A DNA stretch of 64,000 nt. It comes from Frankia sp. R82. GTDB taxonomy: Bacteria > Actinomycetota > Actinomycetes > Frankiales > Frankiaceae. The notes beneath the pieces were generated by a model. The model did no database searches, had not been told where the DNA came from, and was given only the letters and a program-made list of their open reading frames with translations. The translations under genes were made by a program, and so were the position numbers. Shown here one piece after another: positions 30,948 through 36,129 of the stretch (position 1 is the stretch's first letter; every line of letters begins with the position of its first letter). The stretch lies in contig NZ_JAMQQG010000008.1 of the NCBI RefSeq assembly GCF_023716925.1, positions 1 through 64,000 on the forward strand, in the 5' to 3' direction.

Positions 30948-31784
30948 TCAGCTGCCGCGGTGCTGCAGTGGGACGAGGGTGTGTAGCGGCCTGGTGAGCT
31001 GGGAGAACTGGTCGGCGTCGAGCAGATCCTCGACGAGCAGGGCGCAGGCGAGGTCCGCGCACAGTTCCATCACCCGGTGATCCTCACCGGAGTCGAGCCC
31101 GAGCCGCCGCCCGCGGCAGTCCGGACACAGCCGCCAGAACCCCTCGGCGGCGCTGCGGCGTACCAGCGTCCATACCCGTCGCCGACCGGTCACCACGGCG
31201 CTGGCGAAGGCCGCGTCCATGGCCTGCTGATGGGCCGTGTCGTCCCGGGTCAGCGCGCTGACCAGCAGGCCGTCGTACACCTGGAGGCTGTCCGGGTTAT
31301 GGCAGCGACCAGCCAGTACCGGCAGGGCCGCCAGCACCCGTTTGACGTCCGCCGCGGCCGGCCCGAGATCAGGCTCGTGCGAGCGGGCCCGCGGATACAC
31401 CGTGCGCCACGGCCGCATCAGCGCCGCGTACTCGGCCCGGCCCAGGATCGGCCGGGAGTAGGAGGCGGCGACCGCATCGCGCATCGCTCGCAGCGCCGTG
31501 GCCGCCACCGACGGCTCGACCGTCACGTACTGCGCGCCGGCCAGATCGTCGGCGTAGATCGCGCTGAGGGCGTCAAAGGCAGCCAGCACCTCGACGATCA
31601 GCGGCGAATCCGGGGACAGTGCCTTGTCCCGCGCCGCGGCCAGGTAGCCCGAGTTGCGCCAGGCGCCGGCCAGCGCGCCCAGTTCGGTGTCGGTGGTGTG
31701 CACGAGCTGGGCGAGGATGCCGAGAATGCCCCGCAGGTTCGGATGCTCCTCCAGCCGCTCGATGCGACGCGCCCGCAGGATCAT
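30948..31784 (-). CDS. Hypothetical helical protein with a C-terminal CPDC pair
   Basis: 278 residues from ATG 31784. The longer in-frame extension upstream is Arg/Gly-rich and not protein-like. The protein is largely helical (RIERLEEHPNLRGILGILAQLVHTTDTELGALAG). Towards the C-terminus are RCHNPDS and LCPDCRGRRLGLDSGEDHR, which may form one zinc site, followed by an acidic helical tail. I do not recognise the family. It converges on the PAP2-kinase gene 102 bp away, with the gene-poor region at its back. Confidence 0.65.
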   Translation of the reverse strand: MILRARRIERLEEHPNLRGILGILAQLVHTTDTELGALAGAWRNSGYLAAARDKALSPDSPLIVEVLAAFDALSAIYADDLAGAQYVTVEPSVAATALRAMRDAVAASYSRPILGRAEYAALMRPWRTVYPRARSHEPDLGPAAADVKRVLAALPVLAGRCHNPDSLQVYDGLLVSALTRDDTAHQQAMDAAFASAVVTGRRRVWTLVRRSAAEGFWRLCPDCRGRRLGLDSGEDHRVMELCADLACALLVEDLLDADQFSQLTRPLHTLVPLQHRGS

Positions 31785-31822
31785 GCCGCCCACCTGGTAG
31801 CTGTCGGGACCCCGTTCAACTT

Positions 31823-31870
31823 GTCCTCCTCGACCGTCACGGCGTGGTCCTCCTCGACCGTCACGGCGTG
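31823..31870. repeat. Two perfect 24-bp tandem copies
   Basis: The unit begins GTCCTCCTCGACCGTCACGG; copies lie at 31823-31846 and 31847-31870, just upstream of the hypothetical gene that starts at 31784 on the minus strand. It may be part of that gene's promoter region. Confidence 0.85.
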
Positions 31871-32834
31871 CACCGGGCAGCCGTCGTCCACATCCTTGCG
31901 CGCCCTGCCGGCGAGCCGGGGACCGGCGCTGCGCCGGCCGGACCGGATCTCCGCGTGGTCCGCGATGTCGCGAAGACCACGCGCCGTTGTTCTCGGACAC
32001 CGTAGCGGCGTGCGGCGGCGAATGAGGGTAGTGCCGCACACAGCCGGTACGCGGCGAGCTACACCGCGTTTCCGATCTCCGGATGTCACCCTCGTGAGAC
32101 TAATGTTTGGCGACCCGATGTGGAACTCGTCGTGCCATTCGGTGGGGCATGGCGGTGCTGCTCCGGGGGTATCTCGACGCCGGACGACGGGGTCTGTGCA
32201 GCTGGCCGGCGCCGCCCGCCCGGCAGACTTCACTGCGGTGTTCGTCACTGAGTGCGACCACGGTGCCAGCGTGCGTCGGACCATCCGCACCGCGGCCCAC
32301 CTGCACTACCTGTCGTGTCCGAGTGGATGCCCAGCCCTCTCGCCGGCTCGATGCGCACCGCATCGGACGCCTGGCAAAGAAAAATCTGCGCGATCTGCCT
32401 CGCGCCACCGACCGCACCGTCCGGGTGCGCGCCTTCCCCCGACCGTGCCGGCCCGAACGGGCTCCCCCCGCACCCCTCCCGCACGTCTTCCGCGCTCCTC
32501 CGCCGCCCCTCCCGGACGTCCTGTGCCTGCCTTCCCCGTGCGCCCTGCGCACCATCCCGGGTCGGGACCTGTCCTGTCCGTGCGGGAGGGACCGCATGGC
32601 CGGGTCGCTCGCTCGCACGGGCCGCCCGCCCGTCGGACTCGGACGGGGTGATCGCTTGGCCCTGGTCCGGCACGCCCTCGCGTCCCTCGTTCCGGGCGCT
32701 CACCTTCAGCACTTTTGGTAGCCGCATCGTGCCTAGCTGCTCACGCGTCCTACCCTTACTGCGCCGCAAAATGTAAATATCATCCAATATCGGTCAGGTG
32801 TGTATGGCGTCGTCTCGCCACCTTCGACTCTGCC

Positions 32835-32887
32835 GGCCAGGTGGGCGGCGACAGAAGCCAGCCGGTTCCGTCGCCGCCCACCTGGCC
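32835..32887. repeat. Perfect 18-bp inverted repeat, 17-nt loop
   Basis: GGCCAGGTGGGCGGCGAC (32835-32852) pairs exactly with GTCGCCGCCCACCTGGCC (32870-32887). The pairing extends to 21 of 22 positions with one mismatch. It would form a very stable hairpin in DNA or RNA. It is not at a gene end. Confidence 0.9.
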
Positions 32888-33017
32888 CACCGGTCCGTCC
32901 ACTCTCCGCAACCAAACCGCCCCGCGCCTACACGGACAGTCGCCTGTTCTTTGCCGTCGCCACGCCTCGCAACGGGCCCCGAAGCAAGATCCGCCTACAT
33001 GGATCGTCGTGGGGGAA

Positions 33018-33070
33018 TGTGGAGGGTTGTTCGGGGAATCCGGGCCTGAATCCTTGAACAACCCTCCACA
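33018..33070. repeat. Perfect 15-bp inverted repeat, 23-nt loop
   Basis: TGTGGAGGGTTGTTC (33018-33032) pairs exactly with GAACAACCCTCCACA (33056-33070). It lies about 290 bp beyond the aceE stop on the minus strand and 130 bp from the other hairpin. It lacks a U-tract on either strand. A late aceE terminator is possible but distant. Confidence 0.9.
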
Positions 33071-33249
33071 TGCGGCTCGACCAGCAAGGTCTTTGGCCTT
33101 GTGGACGTGGGCCGGACGCGTGGGGCGGGCGTGTGGATCGGGGACATGGATCGGGGACATGGATCGGGCCCGCAACGGCGGCCGGAAGGGCGGTCGCTGC
33201 GGGCCCGAGGTGGTGCGGGGAGAGTCGGCCGGTGGTTGCCCGGTCAGCC

Positions 33250-33294
33250 GGTGGTGCCGGTGGTGCCGGTGGTGCCGGTGGTGCCGGTGGTGCG
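33250..33294. repeat. GGTGGTGCC 9-bp microsatellite after aceE
   Basis: Four perfect GGTGGTGCC units and one variant lie 60-110 bp past the aceE stop, followed by looser GGTGGTGC/GGTGTCTGTC repeats up to the gene end. It is not coding in the aceE frame. Confidence 0.85.
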
Positions 33295-33357
33295 GTGTCT
33301 GTCGGTGGTGCCGGTGCGGTCGACCGGTGGTGCGGTGTCTGTCGGTGGTGCGGTCGG

Positions 33358-36129
33358 TCAGTCGGTGGTGCTGGTCGCGTCGGTGTCGCGCAGGGCGAAG
33401 CGGCGGATCGCGTCCTCGACCGTGCTGGCCTTCACCTCGCCAGCGCGGACCAGTGACTCGAGGGTGGCGACGACGACCGACTCGGCGTCGACCTTGAAGT
33501 GACGGCGCAGGGCCGCCCGGGTGTCGGAGCGGCCGTACCCGTCGGTGCCCAGCGAGGTGAACGGCTGCGGCACCCAGCGGGAGATCTGGTCGGGGACCGC
33601 GCGCATCCAGTCGGAGACGGCGATGACCGGGCCGGGGGCGCCGTCGAGGATGCGGGTGATGTACGGCGCGGGGCCGTCGGCCTCGGGGTTGAGCAGGTTG
33701 TCCTGCTCGCGCTCGAGGGCCTCACGGCGCAGCTCGTTCCACGAGGTCGCCGACCAGACGTCGGCGGCGACGCCGTAGTCGGCGGCGAGCAGCTCCTGCG
33801 CGGCCAGCGCCCAGTGGATGGACGTGCCACTGGCCAGCAGCTGCGCCCGCGGTGCGGAGCCACCGTCGTCCTGGCCGTTGGGCCCACCGCCGGGAAGCGA
33901 CGTGGCCGGACGGAAGCGGTACAGGCCGGCGAGCAGCTGGGCCGGGTCGAGGCCCTCGGGCTCGGCCGGCTGGGGCACCGGCTCGTTGTAGACGGTGAGG
34001 TAGTAGAAGACGTTCTCGTCGCGCTCGCCGTACATCCGGTCGAGGGCGTCGCGCACGATGTGCGACACCTCGAAGGCGAACGCCGGGTCGTAGGAGATGC
34101 AGGCCGGGTTGGTGCTGGCCAGCAGCAGCGAGTGGCCGTCCTGGTGCTGCAGTCCCTCGCCGTTGAGCGTGGTGCGCCCGGCGGTGGCGCCGAGCAGGAA
34201 GCCCCGGCCGAGCTGGTCGCCCAGTGCCCACATCTGGTCACCGGTGCGCTGGAACCCGAACATCGAGTAGAAGACGTAGACCGGGATCATGTACTGCGCG
34301 TGGGTGGCGTAGGACGTGGCCGCGGCGATCACCGAGCCCATGCTGCCGGCCTCGCTGATGCCCTCGTGCAGCATCTGCCCGGACTCGGACTCCTGGTAGG
34401 ACAGCAGCAGCTCGCGGTCCACGGCCTCGTAGCGCTGCCCGTGCGGCGAGTAGATCTTCGCCGTGGGGAACATCGCGTCCATGCCGAAGGTGCGGGCCTC
34501 GTCCGGGATGACGGGGACGAACCGCGGCCCGAGATCCTTGGTCTTCATGAGGTCCTTGAGGAGCCGGACGAACGCCATCGTCGTCGCCACCGGCTGCTTG
34601 CCGGAACCGCGGCGCAGCTCGTCGAAGATCTTCGCCGGCGGCTGGGGGAGCGGTTTGGCCCGCACGACCCGCTTGGGCATCGAACCGCCGAGCCCGGCCC
34701 GACGCTCCCGCATGTACTGGATCTCCTCCGAGTCCGGACCCGGGTGGTAGTAGGGCGGCAGGTCGCCGGCCAGCGCGGAGTCGGGGATTTCCAGGTAGAG
34801 CCGGTCCCGGAACTCCCTGAGTTCCGTCTTGGTCAGCTTCTTCATCTGGTGGGTGGCATTGCGGGCCTCGAAGTCCTTGCCCAGCGTCCAGCCCTTGATG
34901 GTGTGCGCGAGGATGACGGTGGGCTGACCGGTGTGCTCGGTGGCCGCCTTGTACGCCGCGTACAGCTTGCGGTAGTCGTGCCCGCCCCGGGAGAGCTTGC
35001 GCAGCTCGTCGTCGGAGAGATCGCCGACCATCCGGCGCAGCCGCGCGTCCGAGCCGAAGAAGTGCTCGCGGATGTACTCGCCGGACGATGTCGAGTACGT
35101 CTGGAACTGCCCGTCCGGGGTGGTGTTCATCCGGTTGACCAGAACGCCGTCGGTGTCCTTGGCCAGCAGCGGGTCCCAGTCGCGGCCCCAGACGACCTTG
35201 ATGACGTTCCAGCCGGCGCCGCGGAACAGCGACTCCAGCTCCTGCATGATCTTGCCGTTGCCGCGGACCGGTCCGTCGAGGCGCTGCAGGTTGCAGTTCA
35301 CCACGAAGATGAGGTTGTCGAGCTCCTCGCGGGCCGCGACGCCGAGCGCACCGATCGACTCCGGCTCGTCCATCTCGCCGTCACCGAGGAACGCCCAGAC
35401 CTTGCTGCCCGAAGTGTCCTTGATCTGCCGGTTGAGCAGGTAACGGTTGAACCGGGCCTGGTAGATGGCGTCGATCGGGCCGAGGCCCATCGACACGGTG
35501 GGGAACTCCCAGAAGTCCGGCATCAGACGCGGGTGCGGATAGGACGACAGGCCGCCCGACTCGCTCTCGCGGCGGAACGCGTCGAGCTGGTGCTCGGTGA
35601 GCCGGCCTTCCAGATAGGCCCGTGCGTACATGCCCGGCGAGGCGTGACCCTGAATGAAGATCTGGTCGCCGGAGTCGCTGCCGGGAGAGTGAGAAAGATG
35701 GTCCTTGCCCCGGAAGAAGTGGTTGAATCCCACTTCGTACAGACTCGCGCTCGACGCGTAGGTGGCGATGTGACCGCCGACGTTGTACTCCGGCCGGTTC
35801 GCCCGGCTGACCATGATGGCCGCGTTCCACCGGATGTAGGCGCGAATACGGCGCTCGATGTGTTCGTCCCCGGGGAACCAGGGTTCCCGTTCCGGCGGAA
35901 TGGTGTTGATGTAGTCCGTGCTGGTCAGGCCGGGAACCCCGACCGCCTTCTCCCGGGCCCGCTCGAGCAGTTTCAGCATGAGGAACCGGGCCCGGCCGCG
36001 GCCGGACTCCTCGATGACCGCGTCGAGGGACTCCAGCCACTCGCCGGTCTCCGCGGGGTCGATGTCGGGCAGCTGGCTCGGCAGACCATCGGTGATGATC
36101 GAGAAACTCCGGTTCGTGTCCTGCGCCAC
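33358..36129 (-). CDS. aceE: Pyruvate dehydrogenase E1 component, homodimeric type
   Basis: 923 residues from GTG 36129, with AGGAGAAGG ideally spaced upstream. Full-length homodimeric E1: [24 protein letters not shown] near the N-terminus, the thiamine diphosphate motif [10 protein letters not shown] through [16 protein letters not shown], the [11 protein letters not shown] region, and the Pyr domain with [11 protein letters not shown] and [12 protein letters not shown]. It decarboxylates pyruvate and feeds the acetyl group to the E2 lipoyl domains of the pyruvate dehydrogenase complex. E2 and E3 are not in the window, as is usual for actinobacterial aceE. A Gly/Asp/Ser insert ([17 protein letters not shown]) sits in the C-terminal third. 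Three 15-bp repeats lie upstream (36210-36254). Confidence 0.98.

Follow-up and report, generated by a model that had tools for sequence, protein, structure and literature searches.

Abutting copies of two dispersed intergenic repeats, one of them REPIN-like, downstream of a putative aceE gene in Frankia sp. R82

The intergenic region downstream of a gene that we take, from a reading of its protein, to be aceE contains two strong hairpins that belong to different element families rather than to one paired structure. The region lies in the window, i.e., the whole stretch of 64,000 nucleotides analysed here, from the genome of Frankia sp. R82 (G000, a 6.9-Mb draft of 370 contigs), a member of a genus of nitrogen-fixing soil bacteria. 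On balance, we favour the reading that the hairpins are two abutting copies of two Frankia non-coding repeat families, the right one being REPIN-like and having the mode of spread and the role at gene 3' ends proposed below. The repeats are dispersed and intergenic, the hairpin covaries between copies, its arms are spelled differently in different species, a number of sites are shared between species, and the block that carries both hairpins in the window is absent from the sister species, Candidatus Frankia nodulisporulans AgTrS (G006).

Two repeats at one junction

Genes were called by our own script, and the gap between the called genes at 30948-31793 and aceE at 33358-36129 (minus strand) measures 1565 bp, in agreement with the 1.57-kb gene-poor stretch described in the initial annotation. 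The two long inverted repeats reported there are likewise present, with stems of 18 and 16 bp (the latter given as 15) and a spacing of 129 bp (given as 130). In the left repeat (32835-32856/32866-32887) the outer 18 bp are perfect and the 22-nt arms are 95% complementary, and in the right repeat (33017-33043/33045-33071) the outer 16 bp are perfect. RNA folding against shuffled sequences gave z-scores of -6.9/-8.5 for the left hairpin and -5.8/-6.0 for the right one, and none of 200 shuffles of either folded as well. A third strong hairpin (33164-33208, z-scores -4.8/-5.8), absent from the initial annotation, is probably the aceE 3'-end hairpin and separate from the repeats. The features of the region are the following:

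32825-32985, plus strand: body of the second repeat, termed C (about 190 bp in all), with the left hairpin, from the repeat search
32835-32887, no strand assigned: left hairpin with an 18-bp perfect stem, from inverted-repeat detection and folding
32986-33016, plus strand: left half only of the palindrome, termed B (GCAAGATCC...CGTGGGGG), that ends C-type elements
33017-33071, no strand assigned: REPIN-like palindrome of family A, with arms ATGTGGAGGGTTGTTC and GAACAACCCTCCACAT and a variable centre
33072-33107, plus strand: outer flank of family A, carrying TTGGCCTTGTGG about 20 nt out, from a flank comparison of 45 copies
32830-33100 (ends approximate, about 10 bp), no strand assigned: block of about 270 bp that the sister species lacks at its orthologous site
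33164-33208, minus strand: hairpin directly after aceE, kept in the sister species

The C element (about 190 bp) has 17 matches in the window genome and seven in the sister species. Its end segment is common to a further genome, G004, where it has at least 40 matches and forms a complete palindrome of about 76 bp, intact at loci L009, L015, L017, L019, and L021. In the window, this palindrome lacks its right half, and family A takes over at the expected position of the loop; positions 33013-33017 are the rearrangement junction between the two repeats. The left hairpin belongs to a C-type element that is truncated at its junction with family A. Five further aligned C copies extend as far as this hairpin and have an imperfect stem there; the window copy is therefore unusually perfect. 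Different hairpin families dominate different Frankia genomes. Matches to the palindrome GCAAGATCC...GGTCGTCGTGGGGG number at least 40 in G004 (e.g., L009:1519-1600), yet this genome has few copies of family A.

A comparison with sibling genomes for insertion boundaries had been proposed in the initial annotation. The orthologous region of the sister species, with an aceE gene 97% identical, aligns on both sides and lacks the block of about 270 bp with both hairpins; a second alignment setting placed the flanks of this region less well. No similar block was found in the nine orthologous regions of other species that offer about 1.5 kb for comparison, the sister species included, three further regions being too short to judge its presence. 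The absence at the sister site therefore points to a gain here or, less simply, to a loss elsewhere; the best reading is that the elements are lineage-specific at the window site, and their absence in the sister species could be a deletion there.

Curated Rfam families gave a single match across the whole window, a tRNA, and none at the hairpins, and the only terminator-like site found (32405-32388) lies away from them. Two tandem repeats also occur in this region, namely a 24-bp exact duplication (GTCCTCCTCGACCGTCACGGCGTG) at 31823-31870, with like repeats in the orthologous regions of G006 and G004 (L133 and L134), and GGTGGTGCC in tandem at 33241-33300, immediately after the aceE stop.

Family A in the window genome and across Frankia

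Family A is a dispersed intergenic repeat with most copies close to gene 3' ends. A DNA search with positions 32700-33250 gave 68 matches in the own genome, and 68 matches were also obtained with a 17-nt arm pattern at up to two mismatches, compared with none for the reversed-pattern control. Most arms form inverted pairs at a spacing of 35-37 nt, and some loci have a third arm about 22 nt outside the pair. In this architecture, two inverted arms of about 17 nt are conserved and a centre of 20-24 nt is variable; the TTGGCCTTGTGG motif in the outer flank is common to other family A copies. A covariance model built on 31 family A copies (R1) gave at least 88 strand matches in the window genome, reduced by hand to at least 45 places, and all 45 listed places lie outside called genes. 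Their neighbouring genes are minus-minus in 14 cases, plus-plus in 12, convergent in 13, and divergent in five, and one place is at a contig end; 23 of the 26 tandem copies are nearer to the 3' end of the upstream gene, and divergent gaps are under-used compared with intergenic gaps that have no element. A second subfamily with arms TGCCGAGGCCTGGTGAAG occurs in the same genome (L216:2001-2061 and L217:2001-2061).

The search for other copies in the own genome, suggested in the initial annotation, thus revealed both hairpins as dispersed repeats, and several of the interpretations offered there can be judged accordingly. A replication or partition site is rejected because the copies are many and scattered (45 over many contigs, all intergenic). 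The placement of the hairpins too far from gene ends was only partly right, since about 285 bp separate the aceE stop from the right hairpin downstream of it, a distance inside the span seen for other family copies. The remnant of a small mobile element was the closest guess: it agrees with dispersed repeats and with a block missing in the sister species.

Relatives of family A extend beyond the window genome, and all counts that follow from the covariance models are lower bounds, with 150 candidates scored per genome. R1 revealed the sister species as a second copy-rich genome. A broader model built from 34 sequences (R2) detected relatives in 11 of the 13 Frankia genomes and had matches in 16 of the 35 genomes that represent the taxonomic family, two of them from another genus (at least 37 and at least 9 matches). 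Strand matches to R2 number at least 133 in the window genome, 102 in G002, 66 in the sister species, 47 in G005, 42 in each of G001 and G011, 39 in G009, 16 in G010, 15 in G012, 11 in G004, and 3 in G008; G003 and G007 have none among the scored candidates. We take G005, G002, and G010 to be strains ACN14a, QA3, and CcI3, respectively. A pattern scan of GTDB contigs, which possibly excludes the window's own genome, returned 10 stretches, five from Candidatus Frankia nodulisporulans and five from single unrelated genomes, the latter taken as chance matches.

The genomic context was examined for 60 further copies, a part of those found: 21 are in convergent gaps, one is in a divergent gap, 24 of 28 in tandem gaps are nearer to the 3' end, eight have a neighbour missing, and two overlap the 3' end of an ORF in G010. 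These two copies (L192:2001-2061 and L193:2001-2061) overlap the final few codons of the called ORFs, and the hairpin may therefore supply the stop region. The unit of the G005/G002 type is larger and asymmetric, with about 25 nt on the left and 19 nt on the right conserved around a 61-bp palindrome.

Arm dialects and the origin of the hairpins

The arm spelling is species-specific, with ATGTGGAGGG in the window genome versus ATGCCGAGGG in the sister species, orthologous sites included. By genome, the arms read ATGTGGAGGGTTGTTC in G000, ATGCCGAGGGTTGTTC in G006, ATGTGGAGGGTTGAGC in G010, and RTGCCGAGG-N-TT...ACGGTTT in G005, G002, G011, G009, and G001. At the two positions that separate the window genome from its sister, 33 of the 45 window-genome copies have TG/TG, eight have CC/CC, and four are mixed, whereas all 20 fetched sister copies, a part of the places listed for that genome, have CC/CC. 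The outer third arms of the window genome keep CC or a near spelling (eight CC, two CG, and one TC). The foot of the arm is GTGG on both arms in 33/45 copies of the window genome and GCCG in 20/20 copies of the sister species.

Covariation among 34 sequences from eight genomes supports the hairpin: 84.7% of the cells are paired, compared with 73.7% after shuffling and 36-46% after sliding, and two-sided changes number 100 versus 43 in shuffles, none of 500 being as high, the related copies being non-independent and the sequences having been retrieved with a hairpin model. We identified 17 element pairs (15 locus pairs) in which two species carry an element at one and the same intergenic position, the flanks matching on either side, and one intergenic site is filled in G002, G005, G011, and the window genome. 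Among the six locus pairs of the window genome and its sister, five contrast TG/TG with CC/CC, the sixth being mixed. TG versus CC on both arms at shared sites indicates that the arms changed together and the sites stayed put; relatives at orthologous sites look mostly vertically inherited. Thus, the family is real, repeated, and evolutionarily structured, and the in-place respelling of the arms of a whole lineage is its most interesting point. The conservation observed sets the hairpins apart from the random ones that the initial annotation would have accepted if transcription and conservation were lacking, and the RNA element proposed there may hold, as covariation supports the hairpin and its symmetry would suit DNA or RNA alike.

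In the REPIN-like reading that we favour, the elements would spread rarely, probably as single-stranded hairpins whose arms are read by a nuclease or transposase acting in trans, much as RAYTs are believed to recognize REPINs. After insertion they would be inherited vertically, and the arms of each lineage would follow the specificity of the recognizing factor, giving rise to the dialects. Copies at gene ends probably serve as bidirectional 3'-end hairpins of neutral to slightly beneficial effect, marking the transcript end or forming a barrier to read-through. The mobility of the family is a point that we infer from sequence comparison. No gene family recurs in the neighbourhood of the elements as a candidate mobiliser (the most widespread is present at 4 of 41 loci). 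Counting against this reading, the Y1_Tnp/RAYT domain (PF01797) gave no match in the window genome, in the sister species, or in the one-contig, copy-rich genome G005, and no target duplication was found; the domain is present in 8 of the 13 Frankia genomes. REP-bearing genomes without RAYT are mentioned in the available text of PMC6006769, and gene loss is therefore possible. Tentatively, the hairpins may be ancient, vertically inherited REPIN-like elements without RAYT, in which a specificity change of a different factor led, within a single lineage, to the in-place respelling of both arms in dozens of copies whose sites the sister species still shares.

Alternatively, and with a distinctly lower probability than the REPIN-like reading, the hairpins are immobile bidirectional terminators or mRNA 3'-end stabilisers that are kept by selection and whose arm sequence is dictated by a factor that acts in termination or binds RNA. 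Such a role would account for the strong 3'-end bias of the copies, the sharing of sites among several species, the compensatory changes, and the high stability of the hairpins, and the vertical look at orthologous sites also suits a selected terminator. However, a run of at least four T within 15 nt is found in 0/90 cases in the window genome and 0/56 in G005/G002, leaving the hairpins without a U-tract; a simple terminator requires neither a common 17-nt sequence nor a conserved flank of 25 and 19 nt; a separate, conserved hairpin of aceE stands between that gene and the window copy; and the 3' bias may partly reflect selection against insertion near promoters. A terminator function of the hairpins, which suits their position, is possible.

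We consider it unlikely that the elements are classical MITEs, i.e., deletion derivatives of insertion sequences that a DDE transposase moves via terminal inverted repeats. They are indeed short, non-coding, dispersed inverted repeats, and Frankia genomes are described as transposase-rich in the available part of PMC2770080; however, no recurrent k-mer duplication flanks the 45 copies of the window genome at offsets of 0-39 on each side, the lone weak signal in G005/G002 (a 4-mer in 6/28 copies) falls in the conserved flank, and the neighbourhood has no recurrent gene family. Still less probable is a role as target sites for a system that reads sequence, such as DNA uptake of the Neisseria DUS type, a chromosome-organising protein, or a regulator. 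The per-species dialects and the additional third arm found about 22 bp from some pairs fit such sites, and inverted DUS pairs and dialects are known in Neisseriaceae (PMC3630211, as far as available), but the copies number tens rather than thousands, are absent from genes (0/45), and are nearly always paired as one hairpin. Chance hairpins, for which high GC is the sole argument, are ruled out by the shuffles (0/200) and by the control (0 versus 68 arm matches).

Comparison with known systems

No published description of this Frankia family was found in our literature search. Palindromic repeats were counted in Frankia genomes in PMC4447401, where the available text names no families; PMC3188489 and PMC11323853, in their available parts, deal with CRISPRs and other matters; and neither Frankia nor Actinobacteria is mentioned in the available text of PMC2817692 (by term counts) or PMC6006769. 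The REPIN-like family, being absent from the sources searched, seems to be undescribed. It marks candidate transcript ends beside many genes. Research on REPINs treats them as minute replicators linked to RAYT genes; if our reading is true, the family would be a genus-wide actinobacterial counterpart with dialects at orthologous sites and several RAYT-less hosts, which would test the need for RAYT, and it would offer many intergenic sites usable as markers in Frankia.

The dialects of the DNA uptake sequences of Neisseriaceae, as presented in the available text of PMC3630211, may serve as an analogy, given the species-specific spelling of a repeated short word and the inverted pairs at gene ends; family A differs in copy number, constant pairing, and absence from genes. 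The 'double foot' REP sequences, with GT[AG]G at the 5' end and C[TC]AC at the 3' end (PMC6006769, available part), resemble the palindrome of the window genome with its GTGG foot on one arm and CCAC on the other; however, this foot is a local dialect, as G006, G005, and G002 have GCCG/CGGC.

The closest likeness in anatomy is to REPINs, which are REP doublets that form hairpins, are associated with RAYT transposases, and occur in Pseudomonas, E. coli, and other bacteria (PMC3116915, as far as available). Two inverted conserved arms of 16-18 nt, a less conserved spacer, a long hairpin with compensatory changes, intergenic location, copy numbers in the tens to hundreds, several families in one genome, and single-arm remnants are features of REPINs in the same source that are shared with family A, whose copies are dispersed and extragenic (45/45). 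The anatomy is thus REPIN-like, but we do not grant the family membership among REPINs, since no RAYT/Y1 gene was found in the window genome, the sister draft, or the one-contig, copy-rich relative. The arms are self-palindromic (stem of at least 5 bp) in some genomes only (17/24 in G005, 6/32 in G002, 4/40 in G006, and 1/90 in the window genome). Family A also differs from REPINs in its shorter length (55-61 bp) and in having sites that are common to several species despite different arm spelling.
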